Assembly (NCBI GenBank): GCA_020723325.1
Contig: DYJD01000018.1
Span: 62,001 to 126,000, forward strand
Length of the DNA: 64,000 nt
From: Desulfosudis oleivorans
GTDB lineage: Bacteria; Desulfobacterota; Desulfobacteria; Desulfobacterales; SURF-7
Direction: 5' to 3'
A program made the translations under genes and the position numbers. A model generated the notes under the pieces. That model was given only the letters and a program-made list of their open reading frames with translations. It was not told the DNA's origin and searched no databases. Positions 7,931 through 57,884 of the stretch are shown piece after piece. Positions within the stretch are counted from its first letter, which is position 1. Each line of letters begins with the position of its first letter.

Positions 7931-7932
7931 AT

Positions 7933-7960
7933 GTAAGGGCGGTTCGCGAACCGCCCCTAC
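7933..7960. repeat. REP-like palindrome E, copy 1
   Basis: GTAAGGGCGGTTCGCGAACCGCCCCTAC is a nearly perfect palindrome just after the receptor stop codon. Copies are at 30668-30692 and 43355-43382, also just after gene ends. It can fold as a strong hairpin and may stabilise or end transcripts (inferred). Confidence 0.85.
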
Positions 7961-30649: not shown

Positions 30650-30667
30650 AACCGGTTCCACGGCGCC

Positions 30668-30692
30668 TAGGGCGGTTCGCGCACCGCCCCTA
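30668..30692. repeat. REP-like palindrome E, copy 2
   Basis: TAGGGCGGTTCGCGCACCGCCCCTA lies between two convergent genes and can form a hairpin in both transcripts, so it may serve as a shared terminator. Its CTA gives the stop of the minus-strand gene. Confidence 0.8.
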
Positions 30693-30983
30693 CCGTTTAG
30701 CCCTTGCCCGGAAATGATACTTCAGGGCCGCCCTGAAGTGGCCAGAGGCCAGGAGGGCGGCGGCGATGCCCTGCCGGGATGCGGCGGTGGAACAAAGGCG
30801 GTCGGCCTTGTAAAACAATTTCAAGGCCTCCAGGGCTTGACCGTCCTGCAACAAGGCGGCCGCTTCTGCCCGCATGGCCCCGGCCTTTGCCGAAAGCGCG
30901 CGCAAGTCGTCCACTTCCGTTCCGCAACGGGGGCAGGAAGCTTCTTCTGCTTCGATTTTTTTCCGGCAGGTGGGGCAGTTCAT
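30690..30983 (-). CDS. Zinc-ribbon plus helical (TPR-like) small protein
   Basis: 97 residues. The N-terminus is a zinc ribbon with two CxxC pairs (MNCPTCRKK and ASCPRCGTE). After that, helical pairs with TPR-like spacing (AAALLQDGQALEALKLFYKA, GIAAALLASGHFRAALKYHF). No membrane segment. It is convergent with the PilZ fusion gene and unlinked to the kinase upstream. Probably a protein-protein adaptor; the partner is not evident. Confidence 0.7.
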   Translation of the reverse strand: MNCPTCRKKIEAEEASCPRCGTEVDDLRALSAKAGAMRAEAAALLQDGQALEALKLFYKADRLCSTAASRQGIAAALLASGHFRAALKYHFRARAKR

Positions 30984-43354: not shown

Positions 43355-43382
43355 GTAGGGGCGGTTCGCGAACTGCCCCTAC
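43355..43382. repeat. REP-like palindrome E, copy 3
   Basis: GTAGGGGCGGTTCGCGAACTGCCCCTAC, one mismatch from a perfect palindrome. Lies between leuD and the convergent thioesterase gene, at the edge of the cassette array. Confidence 0.85.
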
Positions 43383-43443
43383 ACACCCCAAAAAAGATAA
43401 TAATTGGAATCCTGGCACAGTCGTCTTAAAAAAGATGACTTTA

Positions 43444-43806
43444 TTAGATATTTATAGATGTTGGTAATATTTTTGTCGCCTGTGAGCCATTGGGTGTCCG
43501 ACTTCTCGCAAAATCTGCTGTAATCTCTCCGGCTCTTTGGTTGCCTAAAAGATTCGTATGAATATCTATAGCGAGAGGGAAGCCTTTTCCGTCGTCCTCA
43601 ATTGTTCGCCCTTCAAGTGCAAGGATAGAAGCGGTTACATCAGCCAGCCATATCATTGCGCCAGCTTGTACCATACCATAAGGATTTAGAACACCAGGGG
43701 TAACTGGCATGCGATTAATAACGCAATCAGTACTCCGTTCTTCAATGGAAAACTCGATATTACCGGTTCTTTTGGCTGAGTTAATAAGATCTTTTAAATT
43801 ACTCAT
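43444..43806 (-). CDS. PaaI-like hotdog thioesterase, C-terminus truncated
   Basis: 120 residues from the ATG at 43806 (GGAG upstream). Hotdog features: NPYGMVQAGAMIWLADVTAS (the helix entry with G-x-x-x-x-G-A-x-x-x-x-A-D) and FPLAIDIHTNLLGNQRAGEI. A normal PaaI domain has another 25-35 residues of beta strands; here the frame passes into unrelated sequence (SRTPNGSQATKILPTSINI), so it was probably cut at the array border. Acyl-CoA hydrolysis is the family role; activity is doubtful. An attC-like site lies just upstream. Confidence 0.75.
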   Translation of the reverse strand: MSNLKDLINSAKRTGNIEFSIEERSTDCVINRMPVTPGVLNPYGMVQAGAMIWLADVTASILALEGRTIEDDGKGFPLAIDIHTNLLGNQRAGEITADFARSRTPNGSQATKILPTSINI

Positions 43807-43822
43807 CATATACTCCACGGAA

Positions 43823-43912
43823 AAATAACGTGCGACTCACCGGTTGCCAGGGCCATACTGGGCTGTCAAGTCTGCACTCAGGTGCGGCCCTGGCAATCCG
43901 GTGGAGCTGCTG
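43823..43912 (-). other. attC-like recombination site a
   Basis: Inverted arms CACCGGTTGCCAGGGCC (43838-43854) and GGCCCTGGCAATCCGGTG (43886-43903) pair except for one bulged base, with AAATAAC (minus strand GTTATTT) at the gene-proximal end. The bulged stem plus a GTT-type core is the attC plan. The outer R'' box is not clear. Confidence 0.65.
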
Positions 43913-43953
43913 GTGATTTTTCGGAATTTAATAAATTCGACATTGGTCTTGCA

Positions 43954-44520
43954 TTAAAGCCATCTTCTTACTCGCTTTTTATATTGCACGTATTCGTCAC
44001 CTAATAATTTCTCCAGATATTTTTCTTCTCCCGGTACAATAATAAGTCCGATAATCATGAAGTGTATCAGGATAAGGATAAGAGCGATAACAGACCTGTA
44101 AGGCAGTGAGAATCCAATAAGTAATAAATGCCAGGCTATATATTGTGGGTTTCTTGAAAACCTGTAAACACCAGTCGTAATAACTTTATCGGCCTTAAGA
44201 TAAGTAAGACTGGTTACTTTTTTAAACGATCTAAACTCAACTAAAGCTTCAGCAATGATTATTAACCCAGTCAACATGAATATGTATCCGAAGATTTTGC
44301 AAAGTATATTGTCAGGCGCAAACACCCAAATTGGGTGCAGGGTTGCATTTATAATAGTCATACAAAACAAAGATAAAAATATGTAAGCAAATACAACTCC
44401 AAGTTTTGATAGTTCGGCCTTCGTTTTATAGTCCGAATAGATTTTTATCAAAAGAAACGGACATACAACTATCAATAACCCAATCAGAAGAGGAATCCAC
44501 ATTTCACCAAATATTCTCAT
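43954..44520 (-). CDS. Isoprenylcysteine carboxyl methyltransferase-like membrane protein
   Basis: 188 residues with about four to five membrane segments. The C-terminal block VYRFSRNPQYIAWHLLLIG and EEKYLEKLLGDEYVQYKKRV is the signature of the ICMT/phospholipid methyltransferase family, which methylates a lipid or membrane-linked substrate with S-adenosylmethionine. AAGAAG precedes the ATG; the core of attC-like site b is 39 bases upstream, as expected for a cassette gene. Low G+C compared with the flanking chromosome. Confidence 0.88.
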   Translation of the reverse strand: MRIFGEMWIPLLIGLLIVVCPFLLIKIYSDYKTKAELSKLGVVFAYIFLSLFCMTIINATLHPIWVFAPDNILCKIFGYIFMLTGLIIIAEALVEFRSFKKVTSLTYLKADKVITTGVYRFSRNPQYIAWHLLLIGFSLPYRSVIALILILIHFMIIGLIIVPGEEKYLEKLLGDEYVQYKKRVRRWL

Positions 44521-44556
44521 AAGATATCTTCTTTAAATTTCTGACTTATCATACTT

Positions 44557-44610
44557 GCGCGCTAACGTTGGCAGTCAGTGAGCAGCAAGGGCTTCCACTG
44601 ACCTTTTTGA
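44557..44610 (-). other. attC-like recombination site b
   Basis: Minus-strand core CGTTAGCGC (complement of GCGCTAACG at 44559-44567), followed inward by imperfect arms GTCAGTGAGC and CCACTGAC. Lies between two minus-strand cassette genes. Confidence 0.55.
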
Positions 44611-44713
44611 AAAAAGATTAAATCCAATTTCAGACGTGCTCTCAAAAATGCACCGGCCCAGGATGTCCACTGAACTGCTTGGTTCGACAGCTTCTTTTGG
44701 CACATGTTGCCAA

Positions 44714-45121
44714 TCACTTACTGAAAGATATTGCGCCAGTGATCGTACATGCACCGAAGAGCAGTGCTAGAGTGAGCCAGTACTGCCACGCTTTGAAGTA
44801 ACCGACCATGATCGTAGTGCCATTCTTAAGTGGCAGAATGAAAATACAGTCCAGGATAATGCCAGTTGCAATCATCAGTGCGCCCAATGCAGCACCGCGT
44901 GCTGCGGTCACCATAACAGAGCCTTTAGCAAAGTACCAGGCTGTGCCAATAACCGCCAGCAAAGGTGCACTCACCATGGCTACGAGCCAAATTGACCACG
45001 GCAGTTCCGCCGGAAGCGCAACTGCGAGATTCACGCCGATTATACGACCGGCTATGGCGTTTATTACGAGAGATATCATAAACAAGGTGGTGGTAACACC
45101 CACAGCTCTCAAGATTTCCAC
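44714..45121 (-). CDS. Four-TM membrane protein (DUF5367-like)
   Basis: 135 residues from a GTG at 45121 with GGAGG upstream. Four hydrophobic segments: about 8-27 (VTTTLFMISLVINAIAGRII), 42-63, 73-96 and 110-132. The pattern of a small four-helix integral protein with a WYF motif after TM2 resembles DUF5367/DUF1772-type proteins; the family assignment is tentative. No function is known. Part of the cassette array. Confidence 0.65.
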   Translation of the reverse strand: MEILRAVGVTTTLFMISLVINAIAGRIIGVNLAVALPAELPWSIWLVAMVSAPLLAVIGTAWYFAKGSVMVTAARGAALGALMIATGIILDCIFILPLKNGTTIMVGYFKAWQYWLTLALLFGACTITGAISFSK

Positions 45122-45198
45122 ATTGCCTCCATCCAGCTATTCTTCATGATATATGTTTGTCGAACGACTCTGGTTCGGCCCTTCCCGGGCAATCGATC

Positions 45199-45537
45199 TT
45201 AATCAACTCTACAAAATTCAAATACAAGTATGTTGGTCAGAGCAAAAACACCAGCTAAATCAAGATGAAAATATGACCTGTCATCTATTCCGATTACTGC
45301 TCTGGCAGGAATCTCCTGATCTCCTCGCCAATATAAAATGTATAGCGGTACGTATGGTAACCCTGGCAAGCGAATCGCAATATCAGCCCCCTCGATCCTT
45401 TCACCGCCCATTTCAAGGGCTCGATTGACCAACTGATCCGAAGCTTTTTCAAACCGTTTAGCCAAAGGGCCAGTAGCAGCGGCATGCGCTCCAGTAAAAA
45501 ACATCCGTCCACCGGGAAGTTCTTGTGGTACAGTCAT
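45199..45537 (-). CDS. DUF3786-like protein fragment
   Basis: 112 residues. The stretch LPGLPYVPLYILYWRGDQEI ... AVIGIDDRSYFHLDLAGVFAL matches the C-terminal half of DUF3786 proteins, which are about 190-210 residues and common in anaerobes. The N-terminal half is missing and no convincing ribosome site precedes the ATG. Probably a cut-down cassette gene or one that starts at an internal codon. Confidence 0.55.
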   Translation of the reverse strand: MTVPQELPGGRMFFTGAHAAATGPLAKRFEKASDQLVNRALEMGGERIEGADIAIRLPGLPYVPLYILYWRGDQEIPARAVIGIDDRSYFHLDLAGVFALTNILVFEFCRVD

Positions 45538-45684
45538 TCGCCCACTAGGGGCACCCCTTTAGAAACAGATAAGGTGGTAAGCAGTATATTCCAGCCTGAT
45601 AACTGACCGGATGATCGGTATTGTTTGCCATTTTGATTCGCTGATTAGCGGGATCAACTGTATATTGGACACTAGGGCGGCTGG

Positions 45685-45993
45685 TTAGCGCCTATTCCCT
45701 ATTTGCTCTGCAATCCATGCTGGATCTCGGCGCATTGGCAAAACAGCGACAATATATGCAAAATCTTCTACGATTTCATAATAAATGGCATAAGGGAATC
45801 GTTTGGCAAACATCTTATACAAGCCAAATTTCTTTTTATGTACACCGGCATAAATGATCAATGATTCAATGTCGGAAATCAATGAGTCCCAAAAATATTA
45901 TCCAACTCCTAACTCTCTGAGGTTATAAAAGGCTTTCCCTTCATCCAAATCATCGACGGCTTCTTCTAGAATAAAGACATCTTTGATTTTCAT
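45685..45993 (-). pseudogene. RelE/ParE-type toxin gene with an in-frame stop
   Basis: Reading from the ATG at 45993 gives MKIKDVFILEEAVDDLDEGK ... LRELGVG, then TAA at 45898-45900 (codon 32), then the same frame continues YFWDSLISDIESLIIYAG ... FAKRFPYAIYYEIVEDFAYI to RRDPAWIAEQ. The whole is a typical ParE/RelE toxin of about 102 residues broken by one nonsense codon. It overlaps the antitoxin by four bases. The remaining 65-residue piece lacks the N-terminal strand and helix. Confidence 0.8.
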
Positions 45994-46172
45994 TGCTTTC
46001 GGCTCGCTTTAAGCTCTGATAAAGAGATAAATTTTGCCTTTCCGCTTTTAATTTTCGCTTTTCTTTCTTCGAGTATTTTTTCATGCCATTTCGGACTCTC
46101 AATTTCTCCATTTTCATATAAAAGAGAATCCCAGAGTGCCTCCATAGTTTGCAAACGATCAGCAGTACTCAT
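45990..46172 (-). CDS. Addiction-module antitoxin (TIGR02574-like), frameshifted 5' end
   Basis: 60 residues, STADRLQTMEALWDSLL ... SPKWHEKILEERKAKIKSG, typical of the small antitoxins paired with RelE/ParE toxins. The expected start is an ATG at 46197 with a good GGAG, giving MNIADIKK; a run of nine A residues then puts the frame out by one. Eight A residues would join MNIADIKK to MSTADRL in frame. The visible ORF starts at the internal ATG, 46172, which has no ribosome site. It may be weakly made, made by slippage, or dead. Confidence 0.75.
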   Translation of the reverse strand: MSTADRLQTMEALWDSLLYENGEIESPKWHEKILEERKAKIKSGKAKFISLSELKASRKQ

Positions 46173-46230
46173 TTTTTTTTATATCAGCTATGTTCATTTT
46201 TTTTTTCTCCTTTATACGATACGGTAACGG

Positions 46231-46788
46231 TCAGCTTACCGATAACGGCTCGCCCCTGACTCCCCAATTGCTAAGCGGCTCCGCCGGGCCGCCATTCGGT
46301 GCAGCGCCTGGTTCGCTCCTGCAGCTTCGGAACATGACGACAGAGTCTTTATCGCCAACTTCGCGCTCAAGTATCGTCCATCCACTTCTTTCGTATACGG
46401 GTGCTGTCTTCACGTGGCAATCTATGTAAAGACCTTGCACCGGTACTCGCGCTGCAATTCTGGCTGCCTCCTGGAGCAGCGCTGAGGCAACTCCCTGTCT
46501 ACGCAACTCGGGCTTGACGTAAACCGCAGCCACCCATGGAGCATACTGGGGCCTGTGAGCACAATCGCTCTCAATGACACAGCAGCTGCCCACCGGCCGG
46601 CCAGCGGCAAGAGCTATGACCGTAAACGGAACTCTGTCCTTTTCTGTGTGGGTCCTGAGTAACCTCAGCACAACCTCGGAAGTGTTGTTTGGCCTATTCC
46701 ACCACTCCTCGTAAATCCATGTCCCGACAGCCAGAAGGTGTTCCGGGCATTCAGACAGTTGCTGCACTTCGATGTGAGTGAGACCCAT
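46231..46788 (-). CDS. GNAT-family acetyltransferase
   Basis: 185 residues. Acetyl-CoA binding motif A is APWVAAVYVKPELRRQGVAS (R-R-x-G-x-A), followed by VPVQGLYIDC and YERSGWTILERE, as in small-molecule or protein N-acetyltransferases. The last 28 residues (EPGAAPNGGPAEPLSNWG and on) look like read-through of repeat or att-site DNA rather than a folded domain. The ATG directly follows the core of attC-like site c, so the gene has no ordinary leader. Substrate unknown. Confidence 0.88.
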   Translation of the reverse strand: MGLTHIEVQQLSECPEHLLAVGTWIYEEWWNRPNNTSEVVLRLLRTHTEKDRVPFTVIALAAGRPVGSCCVIESDCAHRPQYAPWVAAVYVKPELRRQGVASALLQEAARIAARVPVQGLYIDCHVKTAPVYERSGWTILEREVGDKDSVVMFRSCRSEPGAAPNGGPAEPLSNWGVRGEPLSVS

Positions 46789-46858
46789 AGCGAACGTCCC
46801 AAATCAGCGGTGCGGGCGTTCAGCCCGCATCCGCTGCATTTGGCTGATTAGAAATTTA
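46789..46858 (-). other. attC-like recombination site c
   Basis: Arms CCAAAT-CAGCGG-TGCGGGC (46799-46817) and GCCCGCA-t-CCGCTG-c-ATTTGG (46823-46843) pair with two single-base bulges, an attC hallmark. The gene-proximal core is AGCGAAC (minus strand GTTCGCT). It separates the GNAT and DUF3592 genes. Confidence 0.75.
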
Positions 46859-46918
46859 GTATCATGTAACCAAACCACCGAAATTAAATATTGTACAATT
46901 TATTCCCCATTTTTTGCT

Positions 46919-47506
46919 TTATGTAATATAATACATATTTGAGTTTGTATCAAAACATGCATTTTTCACTCTTCGATAGTCCCAATAACTTACAAATGTC
47001 AGTGACAAAAAAACACAGCAAAACATTATAATAGCACCAATTGTTTCAGTTATGCCTTTAAAGCTGCCGCCCGGTTCCAATACTGAAATCTGAGGTTCAC
47101 TATGATAATAAAACACATCAACTGTCTTACTTATTGGATATTCCCCAACTTTTTTCATAGCCCATTCCTTCCCGGCGCCTGATTGAATAAAATACAATCT
47201 TGTTCCGATATAATCCGTATCGTGAACCCTATAAGAATAATGGATTTTCGGCCAATAACGGTAGCTTCCGGCTGTACTACCCAACGCCCAACCAATTTCT
47301 GATTTTACTATTTCTCCTTTAACAGTGGGCCATTTCGGTGAATGGATTCCAAACTTTACTTGATTATAACCAACCAATACCAAACCAATACTTATGATGA
47401 AAAGAATTGAGCATAGTATTTTACAAAGCATCATCCGGATCTTTCGATCTTTTGGAGAAAGTCCGATTTTTTTCTTTTTTTCATTATTTAACATTTTTTC
47501 AAGCAT
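46919..47506 (-). CDS. DUF3592 membrane protein
   Basis: 195 residues. TM1 is about 27-49 (MLCKILCSILFIISIGLVLV), TM2 about 155-177. Between them the extracytoplasmic DUF3592 pattern: WPTVKGEIVKSEIGWALGST, YWPKIHYSYRVHDTDYIG, VDVFYYHSEPQISVLEPG. Very low G+C. No clear ribosome site before ATG 47506; ATG 47494 is possible. Function unknown. Bases 47507-47788 upstream hold no gene that I can see. Confidence 0.8.
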   Translation of the reverse strand: MLEKMLNNEKKKKIGLSPKDRKIRMMLCKILCSILFIISIGLVLVGYNQVKFGIHSPKWPTVKGEIVKSEIGWALGSTAGSYRYWPKIHYSYRVHDTDYIGTRLYFIQSGAGKEWAMKKVGEYPISKTVDVFYYHSEPQISVLEPGGSFKGITETIGAIIMFCCVFLSLTFVSYWDYRRVKNACFDTNSNMYYIT

Positions 47507-47788
47507 TTTGCAGCAGATACCCTTCCAGATTATGGTTTTCGCTACGCTACCGCGTCCGGGGTCGAACCAAGATCAGATTATAAAAATTAAAAATAAAATT
47601 TGATAAAGTAAAGAACACCCTTTCAAAGCCTTAGAGGCCAAATTTAAAGATAAAAATAGGTGTTTTAAAACAAAAACATGACCCAGCGACAAAGCTATTT
47701 TCGGTCTATTTCTTATTTTCTCACTTTTATCACTTCATCTGTTATTCATTCTGTTGGCCACTAAAGTTGGTGTAATTAATTTTTCAGC

Positions 47789-47848
47789 GCCTAACGTCGC
47801 TAATCAGCCGCGCTGCTTTTTGCGTCGGCTGAATTAGCCTTGTTATGC
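47789..47848 (-). other. attC site d
   Basis: GCCTAAC at one end and GTTATGC at the other (60 bases), with imperfect inverted arms CTAATCAGCCG and CGGCTGaATTAG (one bulged base) around GCTTTTTGC. Read on the minus strand: GCATAAC ... GTTAGGC. This is the best attC in the window. It follows the stop of the lipoprotein gene at 47853. Confidence 0.88.
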
Positions 47849-47852
47849 ATTT

Positions 47853-49157
47853 TTACCCAAAAATTGGATCTGAAATTTCGATAATTAGTTGCTTAAAACT
47901 TGAATTTTGATCACTATCAACGTATGCTCTTATGCCTTTTTCTTGAAGTTTCTGAGGATGTAAAGTGATTTTCCTGCCATTAAAGTAGTTAATAATGATT
48001 GTCCATGATTGGTTATTGCTGTTTAAACGAGCAAAATGTGTATCGTAAGTAAGAAGGTTTTTCTTGTTTTTATCACTTTCAAACCAAATATCTTGAGAGT
48101 CATCGTCATAAGTTAGCTCTTGATATGAAACCTCAACCCACCCATTTCTTGTACAATCGTGACATTGATTTGCGCAACTAACAGAAATTTTTCGATTCGC
48201 ATCACTAAATACTGGATTTTTACACCATGAATGACTTCCATCTGTGCCTATCCCAACAACCTTGACGAATTTTTGCGTGTTTCTATCGCTTACTGAACCC
48301 TCTAATGTATGCCTATGCCATACACCGTTTTTTCCTGTTGGTCCCATTGCACGATAAAACCTCATGGTTTTATTTGCCGGACCCCATTTCTCTTTTTTAT
48401 ATTTTTCTGCAACTCGATATTTAACAGGGAACTTCGGAAGAAGGAGTATATTGCCATTAAAGTTACTAAATTGTTCCCCTGTTGCTTTGAATGAGGAAAT
48501 TTGTAGTGTTAACCTTTTTAAATCTCCTTCTAAGAATTTATCATTAATTGCTGCAACCGGTATTGTGAAAATAATTGTATTGGCAATAGGAGAGTGAATA
48601 TTGCCGATATCTACATCAATATCGTCTATTTTAATTTTATAATTATATTCAGGCTGAAATGCATTCCCAACTACCTCAAAATCATATTCACCCGACTCTC
48701 TATATTGGACGCCGTACCCCTTTATTCTTCTAACTATGAATAAATCTTTTTTCAACGGAATCTGGTTGATAAACCCCTGAGTATCGAGCACAACAAAATC
48801 TTCGATTTCTAATATTCCGCCTTGAGCTTGTTCAACAAGTTCGTTGAGACGGGTTACAGATTCAGATAGTTTTTCAGAAACAAATTCTCTATTTTTTGCC
48901 GTTTCTTCAGCAAACTGATGGGCAATGCCGTTTGATATTACTTCTAATGTTCTTAGGTTTTTTTCCAGCAAATAGTCTGAATTTGCAGCGGCACGATCTA
49001 TAGACCATCCAATTTTATCTGCTGTCTCTTTTAATGATTTAGCGACAATTGTAGAGCTAACCGTAGATTCTCCTGGGACAGGTGAGCATCCCATTATCGA
49101 AAATATGCAGCACGAGATCAATATAGTTGTAATGCTAATAGTTTTCATATATTGCAT
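47853..49157 (-). CDS. Lipoprotein of unknown function
   Basis: 434 residues from the ATG at 49157, preceded by AAAGGAGG. Signal peptide with lipobox IMGC (Cys24). Residues about 40-115 are a coiled coil (LKETADKIGWSIDRAAANSD ... SESVTRLNELVEQAQ); the rest is beta-rich and ends with a Cys-rich stretch (VSCANQCHDCTRNGWVEVSY). Not recognised. Strongly AT-rich codon use against the host average suggests recent transfer. Flanked by attC sites d and e. Confidence 0.75.
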   Translation of the reverse strand: MQYMKTISITTILISCCIFSIMGCSPVPGESTVSSTIVAKSLKETADKIGWSIDRAAANSDYLLEKNLRTLEVISNGIAHQFAEETAKNREFVSEKLSESVTRLNELVEQAQGGILEIEDFVVLDTQGFINQIPLKKDLFIVRRIKGYGVQYRESGEYDFEVVGNAFQPEYNYKIKIDDIDVDIGNIHSPIANTIIFTIPVAAINDKFLEGDLKRLTLQISSFKATGEQFSNFNGNILLLPKFPVKYRVAEKYKKEKWGPANKTMRFYRAMGPTGKNGVWHRHTLEGSVSDRNTQKFVKVVGIGTDGSHSWCKNPVFSDANRKISVSCANQCHDCTRNGWVEVSYQELTYDDDSQDIWFESDKNKKNLLTYDTHFARLNSNNQSWTIIINYFNGRKITLHPQKLQEKGIRAYVDSDQNSSFKQLIIEISDPIFG

Positions 49158-49200
49158 TTTAAAACCTCCTTTCATATACATCAAAGCGCAGGGAATGCAT

Positions 49201-49256
49201 GCATAACGAAAAAATCAGCCGGAGCGCAGCGATCGGCTGGATTGCTTTTGTTAGGA
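49201..49256 (-). other. attC site e
   Basis: GCATAAC ... GTTAGGA, 56 bases, with arms ATCAGCCG and CGGCTGGAT around GAGCGCAGCGAT. On the minus strand TCCTAAC contains the TAA stop of the upstream cassette gene, and GTTATGC lies 44 bases before the next gene's ATG. Confidence 0.85.
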
Positions 49257-50051
49257 ACCGAATTTTCCATAACGCTGATAATCAGAGAAATACAAAACTA
49301 CTCTCTTTCCATCTAATAGAGCTGGAAAATACAATTCGTAATTCCCTTTACTGTAAGAGAATTTATAATTATTTTCCTGACCGGTAAACACTTTTTCCAA
49401 ATATAAGCGCTCTTCAATAGATGCTGAGTAAATGAACATATGTTTTTCAATCTCTTCGTCTTTTTCGCGATATTCATGACCGCCAAAACCGAGAAAGACT
49501 TTTTTATTTTCAACAACGTCGGGCACAATTAGAACGACTTCAGGGAAGTATTTGTCTATTTTCTTTATTACGGTTAATGTATTTTCTGCCTTTTTGACAT
49601 ATTCTTTTGAAAATTGATAGTTGGCTAGAATGGCAAGCTGCGTATGGTTTTCGGATACCAGCGACTTGGCCGAAGATATAAGCATGTTTTTCTTTTTCTC
49701 AGCAGATAGCCAATTCCCAGCAAATAAAATTCCACAAACCAAGAGAAATGATACGCCGATGGCAATCATTGTTTTTCTAGACAACTTCTTAATTGGGGTA
49801 TTGCTTCCTCGACCTTCTGAGATTGCTGATGATATTTTTGATAGATTTGACATAACATTCAGAACAATCGCACCGGATAAAATTGCAAAAATAGCAAGAA
49901 TACTTAAGTAGAATATTTCGGTAATATGCTCTCTAAATATCTTCAAATCAAATGTTGTGATAATGAGGAAAATAAAAACCCAATAAAACAACGCAATCGT
50001 GGCGAAAATCGCCACCTTGTTGGTGAATTTAATTAAGCGATCATAGTTCAT
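49251..50051 (-). CDS. Membrane protein of unknown function
   Basis: 266 residues from the ATG at 50051 (AGGAG upstream). Three TM segments (about residues 13-35, 45-67 and 96-115), then a soluble domain of about 140 residues (SYSKGNYELYFPALLDGKRV, VVLIVPDVVENKKVFLGF). Not recognised. The stop codon lies in attC site e, typical of cassette genes. Low G+C. Confidence 0.75.
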   Translation of the reverse strand: MNYDRLIKFTNKVAIFATIALFYWVFIFLIITTFDLKIFREHITEIFYLSILAIFAILSGAIVLNVMSNLSKISSAISEGRGSNTPIKKLSRKTMIAIGVSFLLVCGILFAGNWLSAEKKKNMLISSAKSLVSENHTQLAILANYQFSKEYVKKAENTLTVIKKIDKYFPEVVLIVPDVVENKKVFLGFGGHEYREKDEEIEKHMFIYSASIEERLYLEKVFTGQENNYKFSYSKGNYELYFPALLDGKRVVLYFSDYQRYGKFGS

Positions 50052-50421
50052 ATATTTTCTCCTATTCAATTCCTAACATTTAGATATGCAGCGAACCGGG
50101 TTTGTCGGGAAGCAGCGCATATAAATACAGCAATGCAGACTCCAAGGTCGTGGACCGGTCAAGGCAACCAGGTTCGTCTGTATAATCGTTTGGTTGGACA
50201 GAGCCGCCGCTCGGTCTTGGTGCTATGGGAATTCAATACACTCCGATCCGGGGTAAAGCGGGTCCCTTTGCGTGACAATGCTTTTTCTCGGATACCGGGT
50301 TCCAGGCTTTTCCGATTCCGGTGGCGTCCTGTCCCAAAAAATTTACAATCTCCACAATTTAAAGCTGAATTTAGCAACAGCTCGCCGCCGGCGTCAAGCG
50401 AATATATTCCGAATGACGAGA

Positions 50422-51591
50422 TCATGCGGCCAACCGCGCGGCGAAATGGGGGATTGGCGGATCGCTTGTATGCGCAACTTTGATGGGGCTGAGGATGGTG
50501 GAGCAAACCAGGTGTTTGCCGCAAATCGGGCAGAGTTCAGGATGATCCTTGCTGTCTTTGAAACAATCCTGCCATTTGATTTTCTGCGGGAGATTTATCG
50601 GCCCTTGACCCAAAAGCAGCCGACATTGCAGCAAGGCTTCTTTTTTGACGGGCGAATACAGGCCATAGGAGCGTACAAGCACGGCGTTCGGTAGGGGCAC
50701 ATGCTGCAGGAAGCGCTCGATGAATTCCGGAATTGGCAGGGACATCACTTCCCGTTTCTTACGGCCGTAATGGAAAAAGACTTGATTGTCCTTAATACCG
50801 ATGATTCTTCTGTTTGAAATCGGTCCGCCGCGCAGGTAACGGCCAAGATAGATTAAAACGCCCCGGCCGTGAGTATACTTCTCACAGATTCGGACATTCC
50901 ATTTTTTTCGACCTATTTTGTTCATAAGGTTGATGACCTGCTGCGGTCGTTTTCCATCCGGTAAAAGCAACTCGCCGTTAGCAAGCGCCTTGAGAACGGC
51001 GCTGCGCACATGTTTGCGGTAAACATCGCGGATGACACCATACGGCAGCAGAAAGTCTTTCCGGGCCGTTTTCCAGGTCCCGTCCTTGGCAAGCCCGCCG
51101 CCGGTGACGAGACAATGGATGTGGGGATGGATCAGCAGGGTTTTGGTCCAGGTGTGCAGGGCAGCGATAATGCCGGGCTCGGCGCCCATGTATTTGTCAT
51201 CCCCGAGCAGTTCAAACAGGGTGTCGCGCGCGCCGTGGAAAAGAATTTCGGTCATGACGGCTACATTGAAGTGCAATAGAAAACGCAGCTCTTCCGGAAT
51301 CGTAAAAATGACATGGTAGTGATCGCAACGCAGAATGCGCGCCTTTTGTTTTTCAAGCCATTGCTGAACCCGCAGAAAAGCGCACTGGGGGCACATCCGG
51401 TGTTTACAGGAATTATACCAGATCCGGTGAAAATGGCCGTCCGGGCAGGATTGTTTGTGCCCGCCGAGAACGGCCGTGCGGCAGACCACCAGGCAGTGGG
51501 CCGCTTCCCGGATATGACCTGCCAGTGGTCGTAGTTGCTCGAAAGCGGCATAACCGATTAGGAATATCGTTTGGATGGTGGCGGACCCCAT
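50422..51591 (-). CDS. IS91-family (IS801/ISCR-like) transposase
   Basis: 389 residues, nearly full length. N-terminal zinc ribbon (CPDGH ... NSCKHRMCPQCAF), HUH motif in LIHPHIHCLVTGGG, and a catalytic Tyr region GRYLRGGPISNRRI: a single-strand rolling-circle transposase. The upstream DNA (51592-51776) is AT-rich and may hold its promoter; no other gene is there. Bases 50052-50421 downstream show no gene and may contain the element's terminal end. It sits between attC site f and the cassette at 49251, so it entered the array. Confidence 0.92.
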   Translation of the reverse strand: MGSATIQTIFLIGYAAFEQLRPLAGHIREAAHCLVVCRTAVLGGHKQSCPDGHFHRIWYNSCKHRMCPQCAFLRVQQWLEKQKARILRCDHYHVIFTIPEELRFLLHFNVAVMTEILFHGARDTLFELLGDDKYMGAEPGIIAALHTWTKTLLIHPHIHCLVTGGGLAKDGTWKTARKDFLLPYGVIRDVYRKHVRSAVLKALANGELLLPDGKRPQQVINLMNKIGRKKWNVRICEKYTHGRGVLIYLGRYLRGGPISNRRIIGIKDNQVFFHYGRKKREVMSLPIPEFIERFLQHVPLPNAVLVRSYGLYSPVKKEALLQCRLLLGQGPINLPQKIKWQDCFKDSKDHPELCPICGKHLVCSTILSPIKVAHTSDPPIPHFAARLAA

Positions 51592-51776
51592 TAGAATTTA
51601 TATAAACACATATGTTCATATAAATCAACAAATAAATTAATTTGATTTGCCGATTTTATATAATGCCATATTTTTATTGATAAATATCGAAACTATTATG
51701 GGGTCTTGCGTTTATTGATATGTATCCGACTGGTGTTTTTTCGGCCGTTCGATAGCCTCCCCCGCGCAGCGGGTCT
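50422..51776 (-). mobile_element. IS91-like insertion, ends not defined
   Basis: Minimal extent: transposase gene plus its AT-rich upstream region up to the core of attC site f. IS91 elements lack terminal inverted repeats, so the exact ends cannot be read by eye; the left end may lie as far as about 50100. Confidence 0.6.
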
Positions 51777-51835
51777 GTCCAACGCCCGGCATAAGGCGCG
51801 GCGGCTTCTTGCCGTCGCCCTTAATGCCGTTGTTC
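51777..51835 (-). other. attC-like recombination site f
   Basis: GTCCAAC (minus strand GTTGGAC, a full GTTRRRY core) at 51777-51783; arms GGCATAAGGCG and CGCCCTTAATGCC; GTTGTTC at the far end. The stop codon of the WGR gene is inside it, as in other cassettes. Confidence 0.75.
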
Positions 51836-52321
51836 GCCTATCTCGGCATTTTCGTCATAGATACGAGTAAAATTCGAAAACTCAGTACCTGAAAGATCTT
51901 CTTCAATCACATTCTTTGCGATTTCGAAATCAACCACAAAATTACAAACTTCCATTGTTCCACTGCCAATGCTTCCGCCATCACAATGACCCAAGCCAGT
52001 CCATCCGAGAGTTTCATTCATTCTCTCTTGAAGCCTATGCCGTTTATCAAGATCAGCGGTATCTCCCATGCCATCAATTGCATACTCAATAAGCAGTGTA
52101 TAATGTTGTTCAAAGTCGATCTGTCTGAAACCATCTGAAACCTTGGAATTTATTTCAGCTTGTATTGTTTTGACGGCTTTCTTGAACAGTGAATCTTTCA
52201 CAGTCTTCGAATTACCTTTTGTCCCAAGCTTTCCCCAATGAACAGTATGTGATCCATCTTCATTGTCCCACGTTTCCCAATATTCTTTTACATCATCAGT
52301 GAACTTATATAGCTTTAACAT
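51821..52321 (-). CDS. WGR-domain protein
   Basis: 166 residues. The N-terminal half is a WGR domain (KLYKFTDDVKEYWETWD ... SHTVHWGKLGTKG), a nucleic-acid-binding module of PARP and MolR-type proteins, here standing alone. The C-terminal part (LQERMNETLGWTGLGHCDGG and VVDFEIAKNVIEED) is a separate, unrecognised domain. AGGAA precedes the ATG, and the core of attC site g is 17 bases upstream. A stand-alone cassette gene; role unknown. Confidence 0.85.
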   Translation of the reverse strand: MLKLYKFTDDVKEYWETWDNEDGSHTVHWGKLGTKGNSKTVKDSLFKKAVKTIQAEINSKVSDGFRQIDFEQHYTLLIEYAIDGMGDTADLDKRHRLQERMNETLGWTGLGHCDGGSIGSGTMEVCNFVVDFEIAKNVIEEDLSGTEFSNFTRIYDENAEIGEQRH

Positions 52322-52338
52322 ATAGAATTCCTATGAAG

Positions 52339-52400
52339 GCGAACGTGCTGCTGTGGGGCGCGCAGCTTTTTGCGCGTCACTCACAAGCGGATGGTTATGC
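52339..52400 (-). other. attC site g
   Basis: GGCGAAC (minus strand GTTCGCC) to GTTATGC, 62 bases, with a central stem GCGCGCAGC-TTTTT-GCGCG. It lies between two minus-strand cassette genes, four bases after the lipoprotein gene's stop. Confidence 0.75.
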
Positions 52401-52404
52401 TTTT

Positions 52405-52761
52405 TTATTTTGAACAATTTCCATTCTCAACCGAAATAGTTTTATTCACAATGAGTATTCCATCAACATGATAACCAGGAGAAAAAGTAACTTTGTCTTT
52501 GCTAAGCTCTCCATTGAACTCGGCTATTATGTCTTGGTGTCCTACACCAGAAAGTTCTTTAACCTTTTGTGTGAGCAAGAAATTTGGATTTGACGCAAGA
52601 ACTCTTACCCAATAAATCTCTTCTGAACCACATGGCTTGATCGTTTGCTGATTATTATTCCAGACAAGTGCTCCTCGAATATGGGTATCTGTTCCTGTGG
52701 ATGCACATCCGAACATGAATAAGAGAGAAACCAAATAAAATGTTTTTTTAAATAGCTTCAT
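52405..52761 (-). CDS. Small lipoprotein
   Basis: 118 residues from the ATG at 52761. Signal peptide with Cys19 in LLFMFGCAS; the mature part has CGSEEIYWVRVLASNPNFLL and two further Cys. Not recognised. A GTTATGC lies just before the start, as if a cassette boundary passed here. Last recognisable gene at the right edge of the array. AT-rich. Confidence 0.65.
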   Translation of the reverse strand: MKLFKKTFYLVSLLFMFGCASTGTDTHIRGALVWNNNQQTIKPCGSEEIYWVRVLASNPNFLLTQKVKELSGVGHQDIIAEFNGELSKDKVTFSPGYHVDGILIVNKTISVENGNCSK

Positions 52762-53006
52762 ATTAGAGGAGCATAACATATATTATTGAGTAATTTCACT
52801 CCATATCAAAATATCGTCTATTCTATAACACGATAATATTACAATTGAAAACAATTATTTTGTGGCCATATTGAAAGAAAAATTGAGGGAAATCGCTCAA
52901 TAACACGGAGAGTATAAGAATCGGGTCGCGCTATGCTTTCTTAAAATATCAGGCTGTTTCAAACAACCTGATGCTGAAAATGGGTCCTACTTTTCTCTTC
53001 CTTCTC

Positions 53007-53186
53007 CCTAAACAGCTCTGAGACAGCGCAGCTTGGCAAGGTCCTCGGCATAGCCGTACAGATGGAGGCCCTTGCTTTCCACAATCATCTCGCCGTCGTT
53101 TACCCCGATTTCAGTCGCCATGTATTCCTTGAGGTTTTGAATGCCGGCCAGGTTGGCCGGCAGACCGCTCCATAGGTCCCATAGCC
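53007..53186 (-). pseudogene. 3' fragment of a second thymidylate-synthase-like gene
   Basis: About 175 bases aligning with the last 175 bases of the gene at 57090-57884, same orientation, roughly 90-95% identical. The reading frame is intact to its own stop (DLWSGLPANLAGIQNLKEYM ... LAKLRCLRAV) and many differences are silent. The homology ends abruptly in GGTCCCA near 53182. 52780-53006 upstream has no gene that I can see. Confidence 0.88.
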
Positions 53187-53212
53187 TATGATATGAAATT
53201 GTTATTAAATTT

Positions 53213-55318
53213 TTAAGGATGTGACCCTTCGGAAAGCGGCGGAAACCAACGGGTTTCGCGGGCTTTTTTGCCGAGCTCGGTCTTGTCGCAACGCTGAACC
53301 AGGGCTTTATAAAAGCGATCGGCGGCTTTGCTGTCGATATTTTTCAGCCATGTACCGGAAATGGTCAAGACCAGGGCGGTCTCGTCCGTATTATCCGGCA
53401 TCAGTCGGGAGGCTTCCCACCCGAGATCGGCAGCCACATAACGGTAGTGAAAGCGCTTGTCCGGTTTGGGGCGGTTGCGGGCGGAGCGCTTCAGTTCTTC
53501 TCCATTAGCTTTGATGACCCCGGCCCGGGGCCGGTCTTTGGCCATGCTGCCGAGATCGTATTCCCCGGCCAGGTCCAGCCAATCCGGGTCGACCTCGGTT
53601 CCGAGAAGCTCCAAGCCCTGGCTTTTTGCCAGTTGGGCCGTCTGCCATAGGGCCTCCGCTCGTTTCGCACCGGGAATGGTTTCATCCCTGCCCAGTTGCA
53701 ATCCTTGGGCATAACCTTCCATACTCGCGCGCCACATGACCGGACAATAGGGGATGGCTTCCTGCAAGCGCCCTTCCCGGGCCAGGCGACGGGACAGCAG
53801 ATAACGCATACGCTCACCAGGTGACAATTTTTTCTCATCAGGGGTGGATTGGCTCGATTGCGGCCAACGGGCATCGACAAATGCCTTAAGTTCCTCCAGG
53901 AACAATACTTGTTCGGCAACGTAAGCGGCATCTTGCCAATGCCGCACATCCCCGTATTCTGAAAATTCCGAGCTCTGCACTAGAGAGTCCAGGGCGGCGA
54001 TGTAATCATTCCGGGCCAGGCTAAGAGTGCCGATTTCAGCCATGGCGCGCAAGGAATCAAAAACCTCCTGATCCTCCACCGTATCGCGACTGATGGTGAA
54101 ATGGTCGTTCCGGGGAAAGCGGGCCACCACTTCCGAGATGAGGGGCAAAGCTTCCTTTATCTTGCCGTCGCGCAGCAGCAGTTTGGCCCGCAACCACTGG
54201 GCAATGGTTGCAGTTTTCGGAGCCTTTTCGAGCCAGGCCCGGCTCATTTCGATCCGTCCGCTTTGGTAGGCTGCCCAGGCTAGACGTTCTGCTTCTTCCG
54301 TGGGGGTCTCGATCCCCTTGAAATTTTCAAGCCATGCTAAGACCTTGGGATCGCCGGCAAAGGAACTGGCTGAAAGGAGGTAGGCGGTGAGCAGGCGACG
54401 GGCGGTCTCATTACGGGCGCAAGCGGTCCGGGCCGCGACACTGCCTTCCTTGAACGCCCGCCGAGCGGTAAAAAGCAGGGAGTTCATGGCCGACGGTTCG
54501 CCGGCCTCGAGCTGCACCCGATATAACTCAAAGGCCTTTATAAAATGCTCCTGTTTCAACTCGGCCCGGGCTTCCCAGCCAAGAGTAGCGGATGCCAGTC
54601 CCAGACTGTCGGCATACCCTGCACCCGCCAGATCCCGGACTTTTTGAAACCATTTGCAGGCCTCGTTGGGGTCGGCCTCCATCAGGCTGCGGCCGGTCAT
54701 AAAGGCCGCCCAGGTGGAACGGAAATGCCTTTCATCGGCAGGCCGCGCCAGAAGGGTGCTCCAGGCCAGGCGCGCCGCTTCGAACTCCTTGCGATGGTAG
54801 GCGATGGCGCCGCGCAGATAGTCGGCAAACTCACCCGGCAGGTGTTCCGGAACCTTCACATCGGCTTCAAAGGGTGGTTCGGGGATGGGCGTCTCTTCCC
54901 AGAGTTGTTGCTCCTTCCAAGCGACCAGGGCTTCGTTATGTTTGGTTAGAATTTGGCGCACGTTGCTGTAACTGCCGACAACCTGTTGCCTTTTATCCGG
55001 ATCAATAGGGATTTTCGTCAGGGCCTTGCCGAGTTCTTCCAAATCCATTTGCTCCGTTTGCCGGGCTTTAGCATATCCGTGCCAGCCGTTATCACCAGGT
55101 ATCATGGGCGGCACCACCGGTTTGAATTGTGGAATCTCGGGGGCTGGAACCCGCTGGGCTTCATAGGCAAAGGTTGAATAGGGTAGCTCCAAAAAGGATT
55201 TTTCATCTTCCATCAGAATGCGGTGCGGGAAAAAAGGCCCGCAAGCATAAAGAGGAGCGGGCAGTCCAACCAGAAGAACACCGATCACCAGAAATTTATG
55301 GATATGACGTAGCCACAT
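53213..55318 (-). CDS. Secreted helical-repeat (TPR-like) protein
   Basis: 701 residues from the ATG at 55318 with CGGAGG nine bases upstream; the longer open frame to 55486 is rejected. Signal peptide FLVIGVLLVGLPAPLYA followed by CGPFFPHRILMEDEKSFLEL. The rest is helical, with TPR-like pairs (GEFADYLRGAIAYHRKEFEA, LLRDGKIKEALPLISEV). It overlaps the DUF3142 gene by 23 bases, so the two are probably co-translated and function together outside the cytoplasm. Role unknown. Confidence 0.85.
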   Translation of the reverse strand: MWLRHIHKFLVIGVLLVGLPAPLYACGPFFPHRILMEDEKSFLELPYSTFAYEAQRVPAPEIPQFKPVVPPMIPGDNGWHGYAKARQTEQMDLEELGKALTKIPIDPDKRQQVVGSYSNVRQILTKHNEALVAWKEQQLWEETPIPEPPFEADVKVPEHLPGEFADYLRGAIAYHRKEFEAARLAWSTLLARPADERHFRSTWAAFMTGRSLMEADPNEACKWFQKVRDLAGAGYADSLGLASATLGWEARAELKQEHFIKAFELYRVQLEAGEPSAMNSLLFTARRAFKEGSVAARTACARNETARRLLTAYLLSASSFAGDPKVLAWLENFKGIETPTEEAERLAWAAYQSGRIEMSRAWLEKAPKTATIAQWLRAKLLLRDGKIKEALPLISEVVARFPRNDHFTISRDTVEDQEVFDSLRAMAEIGTLSLARNDYIAALDSLVQSSEFSEYGDVRHWQDAAYVAEQVLFLEELKAFVDARWPQSSQSTPDEKKLSPGERMRYLLSRRLAREGRLQEAIPYCPVMWRASMEGYAQGLQLGRDETIPGAKRAEALWQTAQLAKSQGLELLGTEVDPDWLDLAGEYDLGSMAKDRPRAGVIKANGEELKRSARNRPKPDKRFHYRYVAADLGWEASRLMPDNTDETALVLTISGTWLKNIDSKAADRFYKALVQRCDKTELGKKARETRWFPPLSEGSHP

Positions 55319-57065: not shown

Positions 57066-57089
57066 CTTGTTCAAGGCTCTTGGTCTGCC

Positions 57090-57884
57090 CTAATTGGCTT
57101 TAAGACAGCGCAGCTTGGCCAGGTCCTCGGCATAGCCGTACAGGTGGAGGCCCTTGCTTTCCACAATCATCTCGCCGTCATCTACCCCGATTTCAGCCGC
57201 CATGTATTCCTTGAGGTTTTGAATGCCGGCCAGGTTAGCCGGCAGACCGCTCCACAGGTCCCAAGAGCGAAAATAAACAAAAAAGTTCAATTTTCCATCC
57301 TGAATACGGGTATCGATGGAGCGCAGGCAAGGCGGATCAACAAGGGTGATGTCCGATGGGTGGGCGATCTGCAGGACCATCTGATTGTTGCGGAAGCCGA
57401 ATTTCTTATAAGTGTCGATCACCCATTCAATCTGGTTCAGATAGAGCACCCCGTTTTCCTCAAACAGGATCTTACCGTCCACCGGGCGTTTATCGATGAT
57501 TTCATGGTTGTCGGCCTGCCACCAGGTCAGCTTGTCGCCGGTGATGGGGGTGCGGGTCAAGCGCTCGCCGTAGGTATAGGATTCCCCGGGCTCTTTGTGA
57601 CCGGTCATGAGGTATTCAATATAGGAACGATCATATCCCGCGCCGCCGTAAATATAGGCTTCCTCCACCGGATTGGGAATGCCGCAGGCCGGGGGAATGT
57701 CGGGTATCAGCGGCTTTGTTCCTGGAAATTTGACCTGGCCGGTAAAATAATCATATTCCAACCGTGTTTGCCCGGCATAGGAGCCGCGGTCAATAATGAA
57801 GCGCCGGCCTTTGTCCAGAATGTCGTGCACAGCCTGAAACCACAGATCCGGTAAATCCCTTGCCACGATTCCATGAATATTCAT
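57090..57884 (-). CDS. thyA: Thymidylate synthase (archaeal-like ThyA)
   Basis: 264 residues. AGGA lies seven bases before the ATG. The catalytic region is DPPCLRSIDTRIQDGKLNFF with the nucleophilic Cys, followed by YFRSWDLWSGLPANLAGIQN (the R-S-x-D-x-x-x-G-x-P-x-N motif) and GLHLYGYAEDL; this order matches ThyA, but the protein is more like the divergent archaeal form. It would make dTMP from dUMP with methylene-THF. Its last 175 bases are duplicated at 53007-53186. The upstream leader is a purine-rich hexamer run. Confidence 0.8.
   Translation of the reverse strand: MNIHGIVARDLPDLWFQAVHDILDKGRRFIIDRGSYAGQTRLEYDYFTGQVKFPGTKPLIPDIPPACGIPNPVEEAYIYGGAGYDRSYIEYLMTGHKEPGESYTYGERLTRTPITGDKLTWWQADNHEIIDKRPVDGKILFEENGVLYLNQIEWVIDTYKKFGFRNNQMVLQIAHPSDITLVDPPCLRSIDTRIQDGKLNFFVYFRSWDLWSGLPANLAGIQNLKEYMAAEIGVDDGEMIVESKGLHLYGYAEDLAKLRCLKAN

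Follow-up and report, generated by a model that had tools for sequence, protein, structure and literature searches.

Integrons are usually described as one integrase gene (intI), one attI site and one cassette array. The stretch of 64,000 nucleotides analyzed here, which we call the window, carries a run of small genes that the original prediction read as an integron cassette array without a visible integrase. Such a locus raises two linked questions: whether the run is an integron array at all and, if so, whether it is a relic of an integron that has lost its integrase or could still be served by an enzyme encoded elsewhere in the genome. Clusters of attC sites without an integron integrase are known as CALINs (IntegronFinder 2.0, PMC9024848).

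Results

A low-G+C run of unrelated genes

Substantial open reading frames between 43444 and 52779 all lie on the minus strand, and G+C measured in 1-kb windows is 36-50% across the array versus 54-62% in the nearest flanks, in keeping with the single orientation and lowered G+C for which the run had been picked out. The genes are as varied as predicted, with Pfam matches to PEMT/ICMT, DUF3786, an addiction-module antitoxin, GNAT, DUF3592, WGR and an IS91-type transposase; a ParE match stays below threshold. Ten genes or remnants had been proposed, and while the description as mixed small genes stands, the count is now refined to about 12 cassettes. The attI-proximal end of the array is its right-hand end, and the features are given from there (R2 and R3 are the covariance models introduced below; "cognate" refers to the cassette ends).

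52774..52906, minus strand: attI-like leader of family A, 133 bp, with inverted TTATTGAGYGATTTC-type units at both ends, ending in ATATAT followed by GTT
52345..52777, minus strand: cassette W1; small lipoprotein-like gene 52405-52779; attC 52338-52400, R2 38.7 bits; cognate GTTATGCT
51784..52344, minus strand: cassette W2; WGR-domain gene 51821-52321; attC 51777-51838, R2 49.0 bits; cognate GTTCGCCT
50078..51783, minus strand: cassette W3; IS91-family transposase gene 50422-51591; long attC at about 50071-50199; cognate GTTGGACA
49208..50077, minus strand: cassette W4; membrane-type protein 49251-50069; attC 49201-49256, R2 26.9 bits; cognate GTTAGGAA
47796..49207, minus strand: cassette W5; lipoprotein-like gene 47853-49184; attC 47789-47848, R2 77.6 bits; cognate GTTATGCA
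46796..47795, minus strand: cassette W6; DUF3592 gene 46919-47506; attC 46789-46853 with a poor R'' box, R2 34.7 bits
46247..46795, minus strand: cassette W7; GNAT acetyltransferase; attC at about 46237-46317; 7-base cognate GTTCGCT/AGCGAAC found by eye
45166..46246, minus strand: cassettes W8-W9; toxin-antitoxin-like pair and DUF3786 remnant (Pfam); boundaries degraded, no attC above threshold
44567..45165, minus strand: cassette W10; membrane-type protein 44714-45121; long attC 44560-44688, R3 118.2 bits; cognate GTTCGACA
43830..44566, minus strand: cassette W11; PEMT/ICMT-type methyltransferase (Pfam); imperfect palindrome 43820-43927, by folding only
43440..43829, minus strand: cassette W12; open reading frame 43444-43818; last recognized unit before leuD, bordering W11 (right) at GTT

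The boundaries of W8, W9, W11 and W12 went unrecognized by the attC models and are degraded in appearance, and a distal attC for W12 was not found with R2. The transposase gene of W3 (50422-51591) encodes Y2_Tnp and Zn_Tnp_IS91 domains; either it inserted into the cassette or the cassette carries it as cargo.

The surroundings hold a few features of their own. Beyond the leader, 52907-53213 is a 3' gene fragment, and on this side of the array 53006-53181 is a 176-bp direct copy, 93% identical, of 57088-57263, the 3' end of gene 57090-57884. A short REP-like palindrome, TAGGGGCGGTTCGCGAACTGCCCC, occurs at 43355-43383, 7932-7960 and 30658-30693. Scans of the window with Rfam and for tRNA gave no matches, nor did a megablast comparison with plasmids.

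attC sites and cassette ends

We searched for attC sites with covariance models of our own making, whose E-values are rough. R1 started from one site of the window and three of relatives. R2 was built from 13 sites at other loci only, three of them in this genome (one in the intI-bearing array and two in a further array), and R3 from long attC sites of the relative G009 only; neither holds any window sequence. R2 finds five sites on the minus strand (46789-46853, 47789-47848, 49201-49256, 51777-51838 and 52338-52400) at E-values of 1e-18 to 1e-4, and nothing better than E 0.4 outside the array within the 64-kb window. Four of the five are the palindromes that had been put forward as the best attC candidates (77.6, 49.0, 38.7 and 26.9 bits), to which the site at 46789-46853 is an addition. 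The long site of W10 at 44560-44688 matches R2 weakly and R3 at 118 bits, and is homologous to five repeated sites in an array of G009, a member of the same family. A CALIN is recognized by at least two clustered attC sites; here five R2 matches and one R3 match fall within 8 kb. Across the genome, attC matches occur at ten or more loci. A regular-expression scan gave too many chance matches, and covariance models were used instead; our first MAFFT alignments of attC sites had R' or L boxes out of register and were excluded from the models.

A test that is independent of any consensus compares the first bases of a cassette with the R'' box of its own attC. W1 to W5 have exact 8-base cognate ends and thus form an unbroken chain of five successive cassettes, with W10 separately cognate, while the longest such chain in 300 dinucleotide shuffles was three. 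At 7 bases a chain is not significant, because 11 of the 300 shuffles reach five or more.

A plain genomic island low in G+C, with unrelated genes and palindromes due to chance, would account for the base composition and the assortment of genes taken by themselves, but that account is refuted by the independent attC models, by the chain of cognate ends and by the copy of a single cassette described below, and we regard it as having a negligible chance of being right. The original prediction had proposed a covariance search as its check and had named two outcomes that would speak against it, no attC match above threshold or a gene order shared with distant relatives. The search gave matches far above background with models free of window sequence, and no cassette gene was found in the leuD flanks (up to 1.5 kb) of family relatives. 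The locus is an integron cassette array.

One intact integrase, on another contig

A complete integron has intI beside attI, and the window is without an intI match. Neither PF00589 nor TIGR02249 matches anywhere on the contig that contains the window (C100), so that the absence of a tyrosine integrase noted earlier for the window extends to the whole contig for PF00589 and the label CALIN is correct. The genome-wide search that had also been suggested finds one intact integron integrase, on contig C104 (C104:91544-92485), with an open frame of 345 amino acids and a TIGR02249 score of 451.1 bits against a cut-off of 265, which bears out the proposal that this organism or an ancestor carried an active integron. 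Its array (locus L018) runs rightward and has at least 6 cassettes. A C-terminal fragment of a second integron integrase lies at C109:57606-57827 (L039), with an attC match about 1.8 kb off.

An attI-like leader heads the array

The leader at 52774-52906 is 91% identical to L018:694-826, which is located between the C104 intI and its first cassette. In both places the homology stops exactly at the GTT of the first cassette, and the cassettes that follow differ. These 133 bp are the only shared part of the C104 attI region. We call this sequence family A; it recurs on C110 and C65, while C98 has the upstream part only. A 19-base unit, TTATKGAGYGATTTYNYTC, is found in the family-A copies at five loci only (counting 0-1 mismatch or recognized copies); at 0-1 mismatch it is absent outside them, and a reversed control gave 0 matches. 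A second family, B, has 12 matches in the genome, several of them short, including two at cassette starts in C84 and one in C85 that precedes a duplicate of a cassette also present in the intI array. Counting at least two families, leaders stand at about 15-16 further places in the genome, all without intI. The assembly is a draft of 113 contigs, interrupted by repeats, with some leaders located at contig ends.

From its position in C104 and its border at the cassette GTT, we think it very probable that the leader derives from attI. It might instead be an unrelated dispersed repeat, such as a small inverted-repeat element, that neighbors cassettes by chance; the terminal inverted units and the dispersal would suit such an element, as would the C110 copy, which stands alone with no recognizable cassette. 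The copy between intI and cassette 1 in C104, the copies that end at a cassette GTT, and the attC matches of relatives, all downstream and on the same strand (see below), make it a very improbable account. A promoter scan of the window leader gave weak consensus matches only, and in 20 of 29 cases the gene preceding a leader points the same way as the leader does, a bias too weak to use. A BLAST search of 80 database relatives found neither leader A nor leader B beside intI; attI therefore appears to diverge fast, with sequence families that are local.

How did the leader come to stand here? One possibility is that integrase moved the 133-bp leader itself from GTT to GTT, as a unit of promoter and landing site that seeded this array and others. 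What invites this reading is the shared left border: in the window and on C110 the copy sets in abruptly at one and the same GTT inside the C104 attI region (L018:694), where identity falls from 0.9-1.0 to 0.5 or less, and a cassette copy on C98 is joined at that same GTT. The C65 copy, for its part, starts near the GTT of the upstream repeat unit. Set against this, the copies are few and all come from one genome, and the left ends in the relatives G009, G010 and G023 are variable and continue into intI remnants, as plain decay would have it. We consider movement of the leader as a unit unlikely.

Leaders in relatives

The attI region of G009 has 17 matches in G009 itself, 24 in G010, 5 in G002 and 2 in G011, some of them split or short. 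We examined 20 leader loci of relatives, of the G009/G010 type. Most of these leaders end at GTT with different cassettes after it, and the sequence before the GTT border is mostly AATAATATG or AATCAATG, close to the CAATAATATAT of the window. An attC follows the leader at 12 of the 20 loci, and all R2 matches (20/20) are downstream of the leader and on its strand. Upstream of many G009/G010 leaders lies a truncated 5' end of intI, covering the first 20-80 codons and carrying stops and frameshifts. G023, from another family, adds one leader that is 95% identical, again with a truncated intI and with one attC. Judged by these sequences, leaders that lack a working intI are a general feature of this group, and in the relatives, at any rate, they arise via decay of intI. 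Beside the window leader, unlike the G009 leaders, no intI remnant was found.

Cassette copies between arrays

The first cassette of the window array, W1, is the same as cassette 6 of the C104 intI array (L018:3462-3897), with 1 mismatch in 436 bp, and the similarity covers one exact unit bounded by GTT on both sides. On C98 (L038:2003-2377) there is a copy of cassette 1 of the intI array, with 1 mismatch in 374 bp, whose left joint falls on the GTT inside the leader. Divergence is 9-20% between leaders but less than 0.5% between copied cassettes, which puts the movement or arrival of the cassettes long after the leaders had separated; on this sequence comparison the copying of W1 is far more recent than that of the leader. 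W1 may have reached both arrays separately, from outside.

These copies bear on the reading that the array is dead, the remnant of an integron in which recombination ceased after intI was lost. CALINs are commonly taken as degraded integrons (PMC9024848), the distal attC sites are degraded here, and truncated intI ends adjoin leaders in G009, G010 and G023. But a first-position cassette that differs from its counterpart in the intI array by a single mismatch and abuts the leader exactly at the GTT is not what a dead array would lead one to expect, nor are five proximal attC sites that retain exact cognate ends. We consider this reading possible, though rather doubtful.

Two smaller observations concern copied cassettes. 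Similarity in the C98 copy ends on the right at the R'' box instead of R', as though crossing over had taken place at R''. A cassette lacking a clear gene, about 316 bp long, is present both in the intI array (L018:1276-1592) and in the C84 array (L065:10167-10483), the two being 93% identical.

Discussion

We consider it likely that the locus is a CALIN headed by attI, with about 12 cassettes and no integrase in cis, and that it is one of many such arrays in this genome that are served in trans. The earlier reading as a lone array is supported but was incomplete, in that an attI-like leader heads it. Whether the C104 integrase still uses this leader in trans is a closer call, and we lean slightly towards thinking that it does. 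If so, the leader would act as attI and as promoter for the first cassettes, the C104 integrase would work on it in trans, incoming cassettes would join at its GTT (52775-52777), and the distal sites, being older, would decay. The array itself could have been founded by loss of intI or by movement of a leader, and leaders in relatives visibly descend from integrons with truncated intI. A more speculative extension is that the one integrase not only serves attI-headed arrays genome-wide but itself moves an attI/promoter module between GTT cores, founding arrays with their own landing site and promoter; we think this improbable as a whole.

The locus resembles known systems in part. Like other CALINs it has a cluster of attC sites (at least two), small genes of unrelated kinds that all point the same way, and no nearby intI (PMC9024848), but its array is headed by a recognizable attI-like leader. 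IntegronFinder restricts its attI search to class 1 (PMC9024848), and because of this, attI-headed arrays would go unreported. CALINs of Xanthomonas away from ilvD, likewise cassette clusters at other chromosomal loci, are described as mobilizable in trans by a functional IntI; in the available part of that report, what is described are attC clusters and not heading attI copies (PMC12444791). Delta-attI gene cassettes of class 1 and 2 integrons are also attI pieces away from intI, and they recombine with IntI1, but there the attI piece replaces the attC of a cassette inside a mobile integron, whereas here leaders head separate chromosomal arrays (PMC12901181). In Treponema phagedenis, too, attC sites and cassettes persist without a local intI after its loss, but that genome has no intI left, while this one has an intact copy and many leaders (PMC3607928). 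In the open-licence literature on multiple or orphan attI sites, we found no account of many arrays headed by attI alongside a single intI.

If intI-less arrays headed by attI copies prove common, a single enzyme could have numerous expressed capture points within one genome, and CALINs now filed as dead may go on gaining cassettes at a first position that is expressed. Relatives, with their truncated intI ends, also offer a testable route from integron to CALIN.

There may be a third leader family in this genome. A repeat of about 130 bp stands before small genes near attC matches on C41 (L080:1487, 2330, 3443, 5975 and 7063), C72 (L066:4813 and 5539), C21 (L082:642) and C69 (L084:13205), and some copies end like CCTGATAATTAATT followed by GTTCGGC, close to the attI border of G009.
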